Made by a program: the position numbers and the translations under genes
NCBI RefSeq assembly: GCF_000092245.1
Contig: NC_014166.1
Span: forward strand, 62,001 to 126,000
From: Arcobacter nitrofigilis DSM 7299
GTDB taxonomy: Bacteria > Campylobacterota > Campylobacteria > Campylobacterales > Arcobacteraceae
Reading direction: 5' to 3'
Length of the DNA stretch: 64,000 nt
Notes under the pieces: generated by a model
The model's input: only the letters and a program-made list of their open reading frames with translations
What the model was told of the DNA's origin: nothing
The model's database searches: none
Part shown: positions 33,124 to 44,102 of the stretch, piece after piece
How the letters are laid out: the number at the start of each line of letters is the position of its first letter
Position numbering within the stretch: position 1 is the first letter of the stretch

Positions 33124-34053
33124 TTAAAAAACCCACCCACCTTGAAAAAGAACTCTACTGTTTCTATTAGGCTCACTAGTAACAGGAGCACTATTAGCAT
33201 TCCAAGCAACTTGAACTTGACCAAAGAAGTCTTTATATGAAGCATAATATCCAACACCAACATCTTGTAAAGATTTAGCTTCAAAGCCTACATTATTATT
33301 TGCCATAAATGCTCTTCCTCTATCATAGAAGATTCCAACACTACTTGATAAAGCATTTATATCAGGCAATCTATATTTTCCTTCTATATTAAATATATAT
33401 CCATTCTCAGCACTAACTTCACTAGTAGGATATAACTTAACCCCATAAGCTCCCCCAATAGATAAATCTTCACTTCCATCTAGGTTTTTATGTGCTAGGG
33501 CATATTGTAAGTTTAATGAAGTATCTAATGAGATTTTAGAAGTAAAGTTTATACTATGTGATAAATCCAAATTAACTTTAGAATAATTACCATTTGTATT
33601 AGCTCCATTTTCATCATCTACTCTTTTAGCATTATCATCAAAGCTTAACTTCCCATAGGTATAATTAAAACTAACTTTTGAAGTTGATGGAAGATTAAAG
33701 GCTAAATAACTCTTATCATAGTCTAATCCTAAGCTTAAAGATTTAACATCTTTTTTTGTTGTATCATCTTGAGAATTAATTTCATCTTTTAAATTCTTTT
33801 TAGCAATATCTAATGAAGCTTTTAAATTCTCCATTCTTGTTCGTATAATTGGATATGTTAATGTTGCATCTAAAGCTGTAGAGTTACCCTTTGCATCAAG
33901 ACTTGAATATTTATCTCCTAAGGTATAAGTTGTTTTAGAATAACTTAGTTCTCCTCTTAGTCCATTTGACATCAAAGGAGCTGAATATGCTACTCTACCA
34001 TTTTTTAAATCAGTTTTATTACTTAATAAACCGTTTAAAATGTATCTTTCCTT
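33124..34053 (-). pseudogene. Truncated TpsB (two-partner secretion) barrel
   Basis: The open frame encodes only the C-terminal beta-barrel part of a FhaC/ShlB-type outer-membrane transporter. It shows GRVAYSAPLMSNGLRGELSY, then TLGDKYSSLDAKGNS and LTYPIIRTRMENL, which follow the family pattern from mid-barrel. The frame ends with the terminal Phe (GGWVF) expected of an outer-membrane protein. The N-terminal signal peptide, POTRA domains and first strands are missing. The frame is closed by TAA at 34054-34056 and has no good start; the earliest candidates are a TTG/ATG at 33975/33972. Its upstream end overlaps the truncated tpsA in another frame, consistent with a deletion joining the two genes. 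No function is expected. Confidence 0.8.
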
Positions 34054-34615
34054 TTACTGCTTTTATACTTCCTTCATTTGTTACTTTTTTTCCAGCTAAA
34101 ACTGCATAGGCTTCATTTGAGATATTTATTGTCCCTAAGTTTATAACTGAGTTTGAAGAAGAGTTTTTAAAGTTATAGTTTCCTATATTAAAATCATTAT
34201 CAGAAAGTTTTGCTGTAGTTGCTAATAGACCTGCTGTATTAATACTAGCATTTTTACCAAATAAAACACCATTTGAGTTTAAAATCCAAACTTGACCATT
34301 GGCATTAAGTGCTCCATTGATAACAGATCTTTCATTTCCTATTACTCTGTTTAATGTAATTGAACTTGCATTTGGTTGATTGAAGTTTACTGTTTCATTT
34401 TGTGCAATGTTAAATTTATTCCAATTAATAGTTGCTTTATGGGTGGATTGGTTTATGTTTGTGGTATTTCCATTTTGGGAAATATTTGCAGTTCCACTTG
34501 TAACTACTCCTCCGCTAGGTGCAGCATAAGAGATAGTAACTCCAGCTAATAGAGCTGATACTACCATACTTATCTTTCTTATAAATCTTGATCTATATTC
34601 AAGAAGTTGATTCAT
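34019..34615 (-). pseudogene. Truncated TpsA filamentous-haemagglutinin-like exoprotein
   Basis: Encodes 198 residues: an extended signal peptide (about 1-31, FIRKISMVVSALLAGVTISYA) and a TPS secretion domain with NGNTTNINQSTHKATINWNKF, ERSVINGALNANGQVWILNSNGVLFGK and AGLLATTAKLSDNDF. Such exoproteins normally continue for one to several thousand residues of haemagglutinin repeats, whereas this one stops after NEGSIKAVKGKIHFKRFIK. The last codons run into the barrel part of a tpsB gene in another frame. The secretion domain could still be made and exported to the periplasm, but the surface adhesin and its transporter are lost. Confidence 0.82.
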
Positions 34616-38631: not shown

Positions 38632-40569
38632 TTAACTATTTTTTTCAATACTTAAAATTGTATTTTTTAAAGTACTAATAACACTACTTTTATTAATCTC
38701 ATTTAAATCTAAAATAAGATTAAATCCATTTTGTTCTTCTATAATTGTACTATTGCTACTACTTGAAAGTACTTCATAGGTCTGAATAGGATGGGATATC
38801 CCTTTTACATTTAACTCTTCTCTTTTGGTACATTTTATACTATCTTTGATAAACATATATGTTTCACTTGATATTAAAATCTCATCAGGGTTTGCATTTG
38901 ATTCTAACCTAGAGGCTAAGTTCACAACTCCTCCTATAATAGTATAATCAAGTCTATTTTTAGAGCCAAAATTTCCAACTGTACAATATCCACTATTTAT
39001 TCCCATTCTTATATGAACGGGTTTACTTATTCCATCTTTTTGCCATTTTATACGTAGCTCTCCCATGGCTTCTCTCATCTCTATTGCCATATTTATACAA
39101 GAAATAGCATCTTTGGTCTTACCATTTGAAAGTGGATCTCCAAAGAAAACCATAATAGAATCACCTATATACTTATCAATAGTTCCTCCATGTTTTATTA
39201 CAATACTTGACATGATATCTAAGTACTCATTTAAAAGTTGTGTTAAAGTCTCTGTTTCAACACTATCTGTTAAGTCTGTAAAGCCTTGTATATCTGAAAA
39301 AAAGACGGTTAAATATTTTCTTTTAGATTCTAATTGAACATCTTGTTTTCCACTAAAGATTGATTCGAAGATTTGAGGTGATAAATATTTGGAAAGTTTA
39401 TTTGATAAATTTTCTAAAGTATCTTTTTGCTCTTGTATATTAATAAGAGCAGTTTGTAATTCATTTGTTCTACTTTTTATTCTTTGTTCTAGGGTATTTT
39501 GATTCTCTTTTATATTTTGAGACATGTTATTAAATGTTTTTGCTATCTCATTAAACTCTTTATCTTCTTGAATACTTATATTAGCATCATAATCACCATT
39601 TTTCAACTTTTGTACACCATTTTTTAATTTTTTTAATATTATAGTAAGCCTTGATGTAATATATAAAGTTAAAACAAAAGTGATAAAAACAATACTTGCT
39701 ACTAGGGTAAATTCTAGTGTGGATAGATTACTTAAGAATTGGTCAGTTATCTCTTCTATTTTTCTTTCAATTGAAACTGAAACTTGTTTGTTCTCTTTTA
39801 ATATAGAAATTAGTACGTTTACAAGAACTTTTTCTTGTTTTTCTATGTTGTTTATGTCTAAGACAATTTTACCAACTTTTTGTACTGTCTTTTTGTAATT
39901 GGTAAATAAATCAAACAGCTCTTTTTCATCTTTTTTAAGTAGCTCTAGAATGATTTTATCTATAGAACTTATCCATTTTTCATATCTTTCTTTATCTTTA
40001 TGTTGATATAGAGTCTCTTTGCTATAATATTTCAAATCACCAAATTCTTGAACCAAAGTTAGACTTTTTGTCTCTTTTATTAGTTTTTGTAGTTTATTTC
40101 TTGCTTCATCTTCTTTGGGATATACTTTTTTAAACATATTTTGGTGAAAAACATGTTTTTTTTGAAAGTTATATACTTCATCAAAAATTAATTCAATGGT
40201 ATGTTCATTTTCAAATAATTTATCTAAATGGCTTTTTACCTCGTCATTTTGGCGAATATTATGTATTATATTATCAATAAAATCTTTTTTGTTTTTTTTG
40301 AGAATTTCATGTTTTAGTAATTCAAATTTCTTTTCAAAGGAGTTGAAATTTTCTTTTATTTTATCTAAGTTTTTAAGAGAACTTTCTAGTGTTGCTAAAT
40401 TAATTAGTTCATTCATATCTTCTTGAATGTTAATTAATTTAGAAACTTCCTTAGCAAAACTAGCGTTCTCTTTCATGTGATATGTTGTTATTAGACTAAG
40501 GGAACTAATAGAAATAATGAATAGAATTAATATAACAAAACTAAAAATAACTTTTTTTCTTATATTCAT
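38632..40569 (-). CDS. Membrane class III adenylate/guanylate cyclase with HAMP domain
   Basis: Makes a cyclic nucleotide, probably cAMP, in response to a membrane signal. The 645-residue protein has an N-terminal membrane segment (about 7-28), a helical periplasmic region (30-285), a second membrane segment (286-308), HAMP (about 308-360) and a coiled coil. The cyclase domain (about 410-610) has TVFFSDIQGFTDLTDSVE with a metal-binding Asp, GDSIMVFFGDP with the second, and LDYTIIGGVVNLASRLES with transition-state Asn and Arg. The sensor half resembles a chemoreceptor-like helical bundle; the signal is unknown. Single gene, between acuI and proA. Confidence 0.92.
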   Translation of the reverse strand: MNIRKKVIFSFVILILFIISISSLSLITTYHMKENASFAKEVSKLINIQEDMNELINLATLESSLKNLDKIKENFNSFEKKFELLKHEILKKNKKDFIDNIIHNIRQNDEVKSHLDKLFENEHTIELIFDEVYNFQKKHVFHQNMFKKVYPKEDEARNKLQKLIKETKSLTLVQEFGDLKYYSKETLYQHKDKERYEKWISSIDKIILELLKKDEKELFDLFTNYKKTVQKVGKIVLDINNIEKQEKVLVNVLISILKENKQVSVSIERKIEEITDQFLSNLSTLEFTLVASIVFITFVLTLYITSRLTIILKKLKNGVQKLKNGDYDANISIQEDKEFNEIAKTFNNMSQNIKENQNTLEQRIKSRTNELQTALINIQEQKDTLENLSNKLSKYLSPQIFESIFSGKQDVQLESKRKYLTVFFSDIQGFTDLTDSVETETLTQLLNEYLDIMSSIVIKHGGTIDKYIGDSIMVFFGDPLSNGKTKDAISCINMAIEMREAMGELRIKWQKDGISKPVHIRMGINSGYCTVGNFGSKNRLDYTIIGGVVNLASRLESNANPDEILISSETYMFIKDSIKCTKREELNVKGISHPIQTYEVLSSSSNSTIIEEQNGFNLILDLNEINKSSVISTLKNTILSIEKNS

Positions 40570-40609
40570 ATGGGTCTCTTTATTATAAAATAATTAGACC
40601 CTAATGATA

Positions 40610-41584
40610 TTATATTTTTACTAAAAATCTTCCTGAAGCTTTACCTTTAAGTAATGCATCATAGGCATCTTTAATATTATCCAATGATATTTCATTTGTA
40701 AGTTGTTCTAGATTTTCTATTTTAAACTCACTTGCAATTTTTTCCCAAGCTGCAATTTTTTTCTCAATTTTGCACTCAACTGAATCAATACCAATAAGTC
40801 TAACTCCTCTTAAAATAAATGGAAATACATTTGTATTTAATTCAAAAGAAGAAGTTAATCCACAACAAGTAACCACTCCATCATATCTAACTATTTTTAA
40901 TGCTTCTGCTAAAATATTTCCACCAACTGTATCAATTACTCCATCAAATTTTTCACTTCCCATTGGTCTTTTATTTTCCACATCAAATTCACTTCTTAGG
41001 ATAACTTCACTTGCACCCAAATCTTTTAAGAATGGTATTTTATCCTCTTTACCACTAATTGCAGTTGTATTAAATCCAAGTTTATGCAGGATGCTTATTG
41101 CAATACTCCCAACTCCACCTGTAGCTCCTGTTACTAAAATATTTCCTTCTGTAATTCCATTATTTAGTAATTCATTTACACTTAAAGCAGCAGTTAATCC
41201 AGCTGTTCCATAAGTCATAATTTCTCTATCTGTGATAGTATCTGGGATTTTAACTACCCATGAATCTGGAACCTTAACAAACTCTTGATGACCACCATCT
41301 GTATTCATTCCAAGATCATAACCAGTTACTAAAACTTTTTCTCCAACAGAAAATTTATCTGAGTTTGACTTTTCAACTACACCTGCAACATCAATACCTG
41401 TTACATGGGGAAAATTTCTTGTAACCCCTGGATTTCCAACAGAACTTAGAGCATCTTTATAATTAAGTGAAGAGTATGTTGCTTTTATTAAAACTTCATT
41501 TTCTCCAATTGTTGGGATATCTATATCTTTTAATCCTGATTGAAACTTTTTATCTTCTAATTTTTCTACTATATATGCTTTCAT
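40610..41584 (-). CDS. acuI: Acryloyl-CoA reductase, YhdH/YhfP family
   Basis: A 324-residue zinc-free medium-chain NADPH-dependent reductase. Family marks are TYSSLNYKDALSSVGNPGVTR, DVAGVV and the nucleotide-binding VTGATGGVGSIAISILHKLGF (about 149-169). YhdH/AcuI enzymes reduce acryloyl-CoA to propionyl-CoA, which detoxifies acrylate released by DMSP lyases. Its place next to dddY and the shared operator-promoter arrangement make AcuI the best call over a general quinone oxidoreductase. Its promoter fits TTGCTA-N17-TAGACT (41633 to 41605 on the minus strand), with the 41-base element just upstream. Confidence 0.92.
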   Translation of the reverse strand: MKAYIVEKLEDKKFQSGLKDIDIPTIGENEVLIKATYSSLNYKDALSSVGNPGVTRNFPHVTGIDVAGVVEKSNSDKFSVGEKVLVTGYDLGMNTDGGHQEFVKVPDSWVVKIPDTITDREIMTYGTAGLTAALSVNELLNNGITEGNILVTGATGGVGSIAISILHKLGFNTTAISGKEDKIPFLKDLGASEVILRSEFDVENKRPMGSEKFDGVIDTVGGNILAEALKIVRYDGVVTCCGLTSSFELNTNVFPFILRGVRLIGIDSVECKIEKKIAAWEKIASEFKIENLEQLTNEISLDNIKDAYDALLKGKASGRFLVKI

Positions 41585-41630
41585 ATTTATCCTTTGTTTT
41601 TTTTAGTCTATCATAAATATTATCTTCTAG

Positions 41631-41671
41631 CAAGAACTTACAAAAAAGAAATGTACTATCTAAAAAGATAC
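41631..41671 (-). promoter_or_regulatory. Operator-like 41-base element upstream of acuI
   Basis: The 41 bases match the element at 43010-43050 at 36 positions. It lies 47-87 bases before the acuI ATG and touches the predicted -35 box (TTGCTA, plus-strand 41628-41633) in the same register as the dddY copy. It lies in the gap between dddY and acuI, so it points to a separate acuI promoter under the same regulator. Confidence 0.75.
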
Positions 41672-41673
41672 CA

Positions 41674-42954
41674 TTACCATTTTGTATGTGTTAATTCGCA
41701 TTGAATCATCTCACCTCTTTTAGCAGGTGTATTAGGATTTTTTGCTGATTCACACAATAATGTTGTTCCATAATCATTTCTTCTATCATTAGCATTACTT
41801 CTTGCCCAAACTGATACTATTGCTCTCTCTTCTGGTTTTGCTTCACAATTCCCATCAACTTCAAAAGCATGGATTGTATTTTGGTGAAAATACATAAGTG
41901 GATCTTTTTTATAACTACTATCTAACCACATATCATGCTCATGCGCTTGTCCCGAGTCAAATTGAACTTTTCTCATTTTGTCAGTTACTTCTACAGTTTT
42001 TAATAGAGGTGAATCTTCTCTTATTGCAAAGCTTTTAAACTCTTTTACACAAGCTGGAACTCTCATATTATAATAAATCTCTGAAATAGCATGGTTGTGA
42101 TATGGGTAGAAAGTATTAACAGATTGAACAGTCATACCTACTTCTGCGCCTACTTCTTGTCCATTTATTTTTTCAATTCTTAGTAAACCCCATGGTCCAA
42201 ATACTTCCCCATATGCATAACCTCCTCGGATATTTAAGAAGTTCTTTTCATTTCGTTTGCTCTCTTCTGCATACATTGGAAACCAACCAACTGCTGCCCA
42301 AAGATTTGGAAGTGAGTTAGCACTAACGTCATAAGGAAAAACTGAAGGCATTTTTACTTCATCTCCTGTTACCATTTTATAGAAGTTTTTTGTAAACTCA
42401 AGTCCTAATTTTTTTACTTCTTTATTTTTTACTTTTTTGTTAAAGAACTCTTCATAAGTAGTTCTTTTTAGCCATTTTGCAACTGGAGATTTTTCTTCTA
42501 ACTCTCCTCCTGGACTATATATCCAATTTACATCTTCCCTTGCACTAAAGCATGCTTTTGCTTTATCTGGGTTATTTATAACTTGGTAAATATTTTTTAC
42601 CATTAACTTCATATCTCTTCTATCCATGATACACATTTTTTTGATACCTGCACTTGTGTCATACATTGCTTCATCAGAATTTCGGCAATTATTCTCTTTA
42701 GAATTGGTTAAGGCAATTGCATAAGCATTTAAATACTTTAATGTTTCATCCCAAAGGATGTCTACATATTTTTGTTCTTCTTTCGAATACTTAGTTGTTG
42801 TTCCAAGACATTTAAAATTTGCATTTAAAATATCTTTTTTATCTAAGAAAGTTGGTAAATCACCTGCTTTTGCATTTGTCATTAATACAAAAGTAACTAG
42901 TATCATACTTCCCCATTTGATACAGTTGTCTTTTAAAATCTTTACATGGCCCAT
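41674..42954 (-). CDS. dddY: DddY, periplasmic DMSP lyase
   Basis: Cleaves dimethylsulfoniopropionate to dimethyl sulfide and acrylate in the periplasm. The 426-residue protein has a signal peptide (about 12-30, ending TNAKA). The cupin-like core carries FYPYHNHAISEIYYNMR with Tyr283, His286, His288, Glu292 and Tyr294, the spacing I recall for the zinc-binding and catalytic residues of characterised DddY (Tyr260, His263, His265, Glu269, Tyr271). QAHEHDMWLDS and YFHQNTIHAFE carry further His, including the probable last ligand near 357-362. Start ATG has AAAGGAG 6 bases upstream; promoter TTGACC-N17-TAAACT. acuI lies downstream and an HxlR regulator diverges. DddY has been reported in Arcobacter nitrofigilis. 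Confidence 0.92.
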   Translation of the reverse strand: MGHVKILKDNCIKWGSMILVTFVLMTNAKAGDLPTFLDKKDILNANFKCLGTTTKYSKEEQKYVDILWDETLKYLNAYAIALTNSKENNCRNSDEAMYDTSAGIKKMCIMDRRDMKLMVKNIYQVINNPDKAKACFSAREDVNWIYSPGGELEEKSPVAKWLKRTTYEEFFNKKVKNKEVKKLGLEFTKNFYKMVTGDEVKMPSVFPYDVSANSLPNLWAAVGWFPMYAEESKRNEKNFLNIRGGYAYGEVFGPWGLLRIEKINGQEVGAEVGMTVQSVNTFYPYHNHAISEIYYNMRVPACVKEFKSFAIREDSPLLKTVEVTDKMRKVQFDSGQAHEHDMWLDSSYKKDPLMYFHQNTIHAFEVDGNCEAKPEERAIVSVWARSNANDRRNDYGTTLLCESAKNPNTPAKRGEMIQCELTHTKW

Positions 42955-43009
42955 TTTTACTCCTTTAAAGTTAACATTTAGAAAGTTTAGTTAAAATATG
43001 TCAAAAGGT

Positions 43010-43050
43010 CAAGAACTTACTAAAAGTAAATGTACTTACTAAAAAGATAC
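43010..43050 (-). promoter_or_regulatory. Operator-like 41-base element between dddY and hxlR-type gene
   Basis: Lies 56-96 bases before the dddY ATG, abutting its predicted -35 box (TTGACC, plus-strand 43007-43012; -10 TAAACT at 42984-42989). It ends 13 bases before the ATG of the HxlR gene. It contains TTACTAAAA twice as a direct repeat (spacing 18) and a small inverted AGTA-N4-TACT. A second copy lies before acuI. Position just above the -35 suggests activation of dddY/acuI; position over the regulator's own start region suggests autorepression. Confidence 0.75.
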
Positions 43051-43063
43051 TATGGAGTGAACA

Positions 43064-43408
43064 ATGACTAAAAGAATTGATAAAGATTTTCAAGAAATTA
43101 TTGAAAAATGTCCTGTAGAAACAGCACTTGATGCCCTAGCTGGAAAGTGGAAAATACTAATTTTGTGGTATTTGAGAACTGAAACAAAAAGATTTAGTGA
43201 ATTACAAAAACTTCTTCCAAGAACGACACAAAAGATGTTGATACAAAAGTTAAGAGAACTTGAAGAAGATGGAGTAGTTCATCGTGAAGTTTATCCTGTC
43301 GTTCCACCAAAGGTTGAATATTCGTTAACTGATTATGGGAAAACATTAAAACCAATATTAAAACAACTGTATTTATGGGGTGAAATTCATAAAAACAAGG
43401 ATTTATAA
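43064..43408 (+). CDS. HxlR-family transcriptional regulator, probable DMSP/acrylate regulator
   Basis: A 114-residue winged-helix regulator of the HxlR type, with the signature [22 protein letters not shown] (Cys15) and [28 protein letters not shown], then the wing [21 protein letters not shown]. HxlR proteins respond to aldehydes, oxidants or aromatic compounds, often through the N-terminal cysteine. It diverges from dddY with 109 bases between. The repeated 41-base element in that gap and before acuI is its likely binding site, and acrylate or DMSP its likely inducer; both points are inference. Confidence 0.9.
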
Positions 43409-43409
43409 A

Positions 43410-44102
43410 CTAGATATCTTTTCTTTTTAGTGTGAAGTATATTATTGCACTAATTCCTGCACTTGATAAAACCATAGTCATAATCATGATTTGATATCTA
43501 ACTGCAATCAAAGGATCAATACCAGAGAGTATTTGCCCTGTCATCATTCCAGGCAAGGAAACTAGTCCTACTGCAAGTAAAGAGTTTATTTGGGGTATTA
43601 AACAGGCTTTAAAGGCTACTTCTCTTGCTTTTTCAAAAGAAACATCTCTACTTATTTCTTTTTCATATCTTTCAATCGCCAAAGATAGAGCATTCATAGT
43701 ATTTGCAAATATCATGCCTGCTATTGGGATTACATATCTTGGTTCATAAAGAGTATGTAAGTCAAGTACAAAAGCTATGATTAAAATAAGATGTATTATT
43801 CCAGATATTCCTATTGATAAAAAAATTTTACTGTAGTGATTAAATGACCTATCTTGAGTATTTCTTAAGGCAATCCAAGTTGATACTGTAATCATAAAAG
43901 TTATAATCAATAAACCAACAAAATCATTTTTTTCTTTAAACAAATAAATTAAAAAATATCCTATTATTAAAAGTTGTATTACCATTCTAATAGTTGAAGT
44001 GATTATCTCATATTTTTCATTTGTCCATTTTTTATAAAAATACCACACTATTAAAAGGGGTAAAATAGAATAAACTAAATGAGTAAAAGGAATAATTTGC
44101 AT
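43410..44102 (-). CDS. FetB-like ABC transporter permease (UPF0014)
   Basis: A 230-residue inner-membrane protein with about seven hydrophobic helices and family blocks YEPRYVIPIAGMIFANTMNALSLAIERYEKE and GMMTGQILSGIDPLIAVRYQIMIM. In E. coli, FetB pairs with the ATPase FetA in iron export and oxidative-stress tolerance. No fetA partner is adjacent; gpsA lies one base upstream and overlaps functionally with nothing here. The missing ATPase gene may be elsewhere. Confidence 0.88.
   Translation of the reverse strand: MQIIPFTHLVYSILPLLIVWYFYKKWTNEKYEIITSTIRMVIQLLIIGYFLIYLFKEKNDFVGLLIITFMITVSTWIALRNTQDRSFNHYSKIFLSIGISGIIHLILIIAFVLDLHTLYEPRYVIPIAGMIFANTMNALSLAIERYEKEISRDVSFEKAREVAFKACLIPQINSLLAVGLVSLPGMMTGQILSGIDPLIAVRYQIMIMTMVLSSAGISAIIYFTLKRKDI

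Follow-up and report, generated by a model that had tools for sequence, protein, structure and literature searches.

A repeated 41-bp element as the probable operator of an HxlR-type regulator at acuI and dddY in Arcobacter nitrofigilis and its relatives

DMSP lyase and acuI genes are known to be co-regulated by AcuR (TetR), AcuZ/DddZ or DddR (LysR), in response to DMSP, acrylate or 3-HP, and AcuR of A. faecalis M3A, for example, controls both the DMSP lyase and acuI (PMC13104084). The locus of Arcobacter nitrofigilis DSM 7299 analyzed here likewise combines these two functions, but the protein families and operators of the known systems are unrelated to its HxlR protein (PF01638). The preliminary description of this DNA had proposed that an HxlR-type regulator of dddY is undescribed, in agreement with the literature searched, where the known regulators are TetR or LysR proteins (PMC13104084). 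No paper linking HxlR with dddY or acrylate was found in that literature, subscription papers being outside its scope. HxlR/DUF24 regulator-reductase pairs are already known (RrpA/MdaB, YodB, QsrR); however, the pairing with acuI and dddY appears to be new.

In Campylobacter jejuni, the RrpA/mdaB and RrpB/nfrA pairs likewise place an HxlR/DUF24 protein divergent from a reductase gene, with inverted-repeat sites in the shared intergenic region and cysteine-based sensing, and RrpA activates its divergent quinone reductase gene (PMC8765430). However, the partners there are quinone or flavin reductases without a DMSP lyase, whereas here the partner is an acryloyl-CoA reductase. The HxlR protein of this locus is neither RrpA nor RrpB, because it scores below both NCBIfam cut-offs (78 bits against 185 for RrpA and 101 bits against 175 for RrpB). 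Bacillus subtilis HxlR, the activator of hxlAB, responds to a toxic C1 electrophile through Cys11, which senses formaldehyde and is equivalent in place to Cys16 of the protein described here (PMC7835342). Formaldehyde sensing in B. subtilis needs the Cys11-Lys13 pair, whereas the corresponding +2 residue here is Val18. YodB, CatR and QsrR are further DUF24 proteins, thiol sensors in control of enzymes that detoxify electrophiles, and quinones S-alkylate the conserved Cys5 of QsrR (PMC6798810). Their targets are quinone or azo reductases and dioxygenases, which they repress, whereas the genes concerned here are acuI and dddY.

The window, i.e., the whole stretch of 64,000 nucleotides that was analyzed, contains the following features of interest.

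40610–41584, minus strand: acuI, acryloyl-CoA reductase (YhdH/MDR012; TIGR02823)
41605–41610, minus strand: predicted -10 hexamer of acuI, TAGACT
41628–41633, minus strand: predicted -35 hexamer of acuI, TTGCTA
41631–41671, minus strand: putative operator copy B, 41 bp, upstream of acuI and 2 bases after the dddY stop codon
41674–42954, minus strand: dddY, periplasmic DMSP lyase (NCBIfam equivalog NF053571)
42984–42989, minus strand: predicted -10 hexamer of dddY, TAAACT
42992–42997, plus strand: probable -10 of hxlR, TAAAAT, read from the other strand of this symmetric -10 region
43007–43012, minus strand: predicted -35 hexamer of dddY, TTGACC, whose TTG forms the final three operator bases
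43010–43050, minus strand: putative operator copy A, 41 bp, between the divergent dddY and hxlR, with two tandem inverted repeats
43017–43030, no strand assigned: proximal inverted repeat of copy A, 19 bp from the distal one, centre 27.5
43036–43049, no strand assigned: distal inverted repeat of copy A, family consensus TATCT-N4-AGATA, centre 8.5
43064–43408, plus strand: hxlR, encoding a 114-aa winged-helix regulator of the HxlR/DUF24 type whose only cysteine is Cys16 (PF01638)

The HxlR protein matches PF01638 with 118 bits (cut-off 20.8, E=1.7e-34), and among solved structures it is closest to B. subtilis HxlR (122 bits). DddY scores 776 bits against NF053571 (cut-off 650) and matches the solved DddY structure 5xkx at 9e-67; both the H-x3-E-x-Y motif and the later His are retained when the two are aligned. 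AcuI scores 411 bits against TIGR02823, the YhdH subfamily (cut-off 297), but stays below the narrower NF051456 equivalog (322 bits versus 440). According to an earlier paper (PMC3338564), an E. coli yhdH mutant regains acrylate resistance when given the A. nitrofigilis acuI, and the organism has two dddY genes, one of which (Arnit_0113) lies immediately 5' of a divergent-type acuI (Arnit_0112), apparently the same locus as here. As far as accessible, that paper describes no regulator or operator for the locus. A Pfam scan of the five ORFs at 38632–44102 revealed no TetR or LysR protein beside dddY and acuI. Elsewhere in the window, a 198-aa ORF (34019–34615) adjoining a response regulator gene looks like the beginning of a large secreted protein of the haemagglutinin type that has apparently been truncated.

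The preliminary description had reported that two 41-bp stretches agree at 36 of 41 positions, that each touches the -35 box of the following minus-strand gene in the same register, and that hxlR begins 13 bases past one of them. All three observations were reproduced. The two copies lie on the same strand, the promoter register is exact on the minus strand (TTGACC-N17-TAAACT for dddY and TTGCTA-N17-TAGACT for acuI), and the hxlR start at 43064 is 13 bases past the end of copy A at 43050. The next-best match to the 41-mer in the window was only 25/41, and none of 300 random 41-mers from the window had a second copy at 36/41 or better, their maximum being 33. A whole-genome BLAST search (3,192,235 bp) returned these two places only, with E=1.4e-8 for the second copy. 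A scan of the genome for further copies, as had been proposed, was run with degenerate patterns allowing up to 3 mismatches and found only the same two sites, although weaker regulon members could escape pattern searches of this kind; the reversed control pattern gave no match in the whole genome. A chance repeat as the origin of the two 41-mers is ruled out by the BLAST search, the pattern scan and the random 41-mer comparison.

The anatomy of the element was derived from 53 distinct divergent-promoter elements. The element matches itself at a lag of 19 with a value of 0.63, compared with a background of about 0.3, and its palindromes are centred on positions 8.5, 18 and 27.5. It is most simply read as two inverted repeats resembling TATCT-N4-AGATA and spaced 19 bp apart. 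The terminal TTCTTG is nearly invariant (CTTG in 53/53) and has no symmetric counterpart, consistent with its TTG being the start of the -35 box, which is weak beyond these three bases (TTGTTC/TTGCTC). The -10 region, ATTTTAGCTAAAGT, is symmetric, and its hxlR strand reads TAAAAT in 51 of 59 divergent promoters; this TAAAAT is lost in 4 of the 5 promoters without a divergent hxlR. One -10 region probably serves both directions and is shared with hxlR, which would place the operator upstream of acuI or dddY and, at the same time, inside the presumed hxlR leader.

Comparison with 104 Arcobacteraceae-type genomes revealed an hxlR orthologue in 61 of them. A degenerate pattern of the element was found in 56 of these 61 genomes and in none of the 43 without hxlR (Fisher p=5e-24), and a reversed-pattern control gave no match across the 104 genomes. 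Of the five exceptions, four come from a single genus, g15, with altered spacers (AAAAA for TTTTT), and the fifth, G084, has a one-base shift; these changes account for their being missed by the pattern, and a related element is still visible before acuI in all five. Wherever the contig could be checked and dddY does not intervene, the element separates hxlR from a divergent acuI. The PWM scores of hxlR-linked acuI promoters are mostly 30–58, compared with a shuffled maximum of 12.6, whereas in the 21 genomes that have acuI but no orthologue of hxlR the acuI promoters all stay below a score of 10, none reaching the null maximum. In most hxlR-less relatives, acuI lies 4–40 bp behind a same-strand gene, usually gpsA, with no operator (L120–L139). 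G023 has a degenerate element with no hxlR detected within the 4.5 kb examined.

Within Campylobacterota, the sampled genomes from outside the family yielded no counterpart of this HxlR at E<=1e-35. Weaker relatives of it in Pseudomonadales (48–61% identity; L152–L161) have, as read by eye, similar elements of ~41 bp with ends CAAGAA...GATAC upstream of their own hxlR-type gene. One of the ten is beside a clear, divergent acuI relative, and most are beside other genes. These elements suggest that the operator type may be older than Arcobacteraceae.

We judge it probable that the adjacent HxlR uses the 41-bp element as its operator and acts through it on acuI and dddY as a regulon. The predicted coordinated control of the two genes is supported by the co-occurrence described above, and further backed by elements at promoters away from hxlR, namely those of dddY in G045 and of a second acuI in G004 and G053. 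It does not extend to the second dddY of A. nitrofigilis, which we rejected as a regulon member for want of an element nearby.

A second element copy was found in only five genomes, always before a second acuI or before dddY, which points to hxlR/acuI as the core of the module. The extra copy precedes dddY in A. nitrofigilis DSM 7299 (G000), G073 and G045, and a second acuI in G004 and G053, where the stretch examined holds no hxlR orthologue. In G000 and G073, dddY sits between hxlR and acuI, with copy A kept at the equivalent place in G073; in G045, one contig holds dddY with its element and another holds hxlR and acuI. Every extra copy ends in TTG, followed by a -10 at the same spacing. Extra copies in trans at the same register fit a trans-acting regulator and not a mere insertion scar.

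The history of the dddY site can be read from the same genomes. G001, of the same genus as G000, has the hxlR-operator-acuI arrangement without dddY, and in G000 both sides of dddY align with a 72-bp stretch of it that includes the operator. From these alignments we take the ancestral module to be hxlR/acuI alone, with dddY as a late addition in three genomes. The nucleotide identity between G000 and G073, which belongs to another genus, is mostly 85–95% from hxlR through copy B (window 41600–43410) and falls to about 65–80% in most of acuI; this drop suggests that hxlR, dddY and the operator moved between genera as a block. The name "DMSP regulon" given to the system earlier is thus not apt for the primary module, which is hxlR/acuI with dddY added late. 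A DMSP-only regulon was rejected, as genomes lacking dddY still have the element linked to hxlR/acuI. Because most genomes with the module lack dddY, its natural inducer need not derive from DMSP.

Several further genes deserve mention in their own right. The second dddY of A. nitrofigilis (G000:C1:2791889-2793112; L009 7887-9140) is clustered with genes for a flavocytochrome c reductase (TIGR01813), cytochromes of the NapC/NrfH and c3 types, a dCache histidine kinase and a response regulator, possibly an acrylate-respiration locus under separate control. In G020, a dddY (L012 8132-8977) directly follows hxlR without an operator of its own and shows an in-frame internal loss of about residues 185–325, including the metal-site region. 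An enoyl-CoA hydratase gene (PF00378) comes right after dddY in both G045 (L011 6607-7386) and G020 (L012 9063-9842) and is a candidate acryloyl-CoA hydratase. An HxlR paralogue of the NCFFQLATDMIGGKWK type was found near a thioredoxin-like gene (L012 3962-4318, L010 14661-15041), and several other genomes have an HxlR paralogue at the far side of acuI.

Cys16 is present in all 61 HxlR orthologues and is the sole cysteine in 60 of them. It is N-terminal, before the GKWK motif, and aligns with the sensing cysteine of B. subtilis HxlR as well as with the N-terminal cysteine of YybR/HypR. The Cys-X-Lys pair is absent (Cys16-Pro17-Val18), and because there is no Lys at the +2 position the formaldehyde crosslink of B. 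subtilis HxlR cannot be literally copied; a formaldehyde sensor of that kind was rejected. Acrylyl-CoA, the substrate of AcuI, has been described as a cytotoxic electrophile that attacks sulfhydryls (PMC4029986). We lean slightly towards HxlR being a thiol-based electrophile sensor, with acryloyl-CoA or acrylate at the ligand step.

The two 41-mers might instead be an extended core promoter, or a recombination repeat left by the insertion of dddY, without any dedicated regulator. Such an origin would explain why two copies flank dddY in G000 and why the operator region aligns to both junctions. However, dozens of genomes that lack dddY have the element, it tracks hxlR and is absent where hxlR is absent, and its dyad and tandem symmetry over 40 bp exceeds any promoter consensus, making this explanation extremely improbable. 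Almost as hard to sustain is the idea that another regulator binds the element, e.g., one of the three HxlR paralogues, while the adjacent HxlR acts elsewhere. The A. nitrofigilis genome does contain four PF01638 members, but no element was seen upstream of the other three, the element co-occurs with the adjacent HxlR orthologue genome by genome, and the Pseudomonadales relatives of that same protein have similar elements upstream of their own genes. We consider this alternative very unlikely.

The direction of control by the adjacent HxlR is a closer question. HxlR could be a repressor of acuI, dddY and itself that is released on alkylation of Cys16, as the DUF24 proteins YodB, CatR and QsrR are quinone-responsive repressors (PMC6798810), and the operator overlaps the TTG of the -35 and lies in the presumed hxlR leader. 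However, the site is upstream of the promoter and not between -35 and -10, and the -35 is weak beyond TTG, as expected for dependence on an activator. Moreover, acuI of most genomes without hxlR has no such promoter and lies 4–40 bp behind a same-strand gene, which better fits the loss of an activator. Activation is also how RrpA and the closest solved relative, B. subtilis HxlR, work. A repressor is therefore possible but somewhat doubtful. The position just upstream of the -35, with an overlap of three bases, fits an activator and could also serve repression. Considering the operator position, the weak -35, the fate of the acuI promoter without hxlR and the HxlR and RrpA precedents, we prefer HxlR as an activator of acuI and dddY, which we hold to be moderately likely.

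With HxlR as an activator, two HxlR dimers would bind the two tandem inverted repeats immediately upstream of the acuI -35, the repeat centres lying some 46 and 65 bp before the presumed start. DddY would cleave DMSP to the climate gas DMS and to acrylate, which would be taken up and ligated to CoA. Modification of Cys16 by acryloyl-CoA, acrylate or a related electrophile would then raise acuI and dddY expression. This proposed loop draws on the invariant Cys16, the precedents of B. subtilis HxlR and QsrR, and the electrophilic nature of acrylyl-CoA. Binding of HxlR would also repress hxlR itself, since the operator lies in its presumed leader. In G000 and G073, a second operator copy would have come with dddY between hxlR and acuI, so that DMSP cleavage and disposal of the toxic product would be switched together. 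Evenly balanced in our judgment is the broader proposal that an ancestral HxlR sensor of acryloyl-CoA or acrylate, with a bidirectional -10, captured horizontally acquired dddY more than once through its operator.

For the regulators of DMSP lyase genes that the literature search turned up, the ligands bound are DMSP, acrylate or 3-HP. A single-cysteine HxlR, if the proposal is true, would sense the toxic product by chemistry and not through a binding pocket, and acrylate would be made by the cell only when it can be removed. The growth of the regulon can be read in related genomes, which show a dddY-free site, a duplicated operator and a copy placed in trans. One study of anoxic saltmarsh sediment fed with DMSP found Arcobacteraceae to be the most abundant family (PMC12596276), and a switch of DMS production in this family would therefore be of practical interest.
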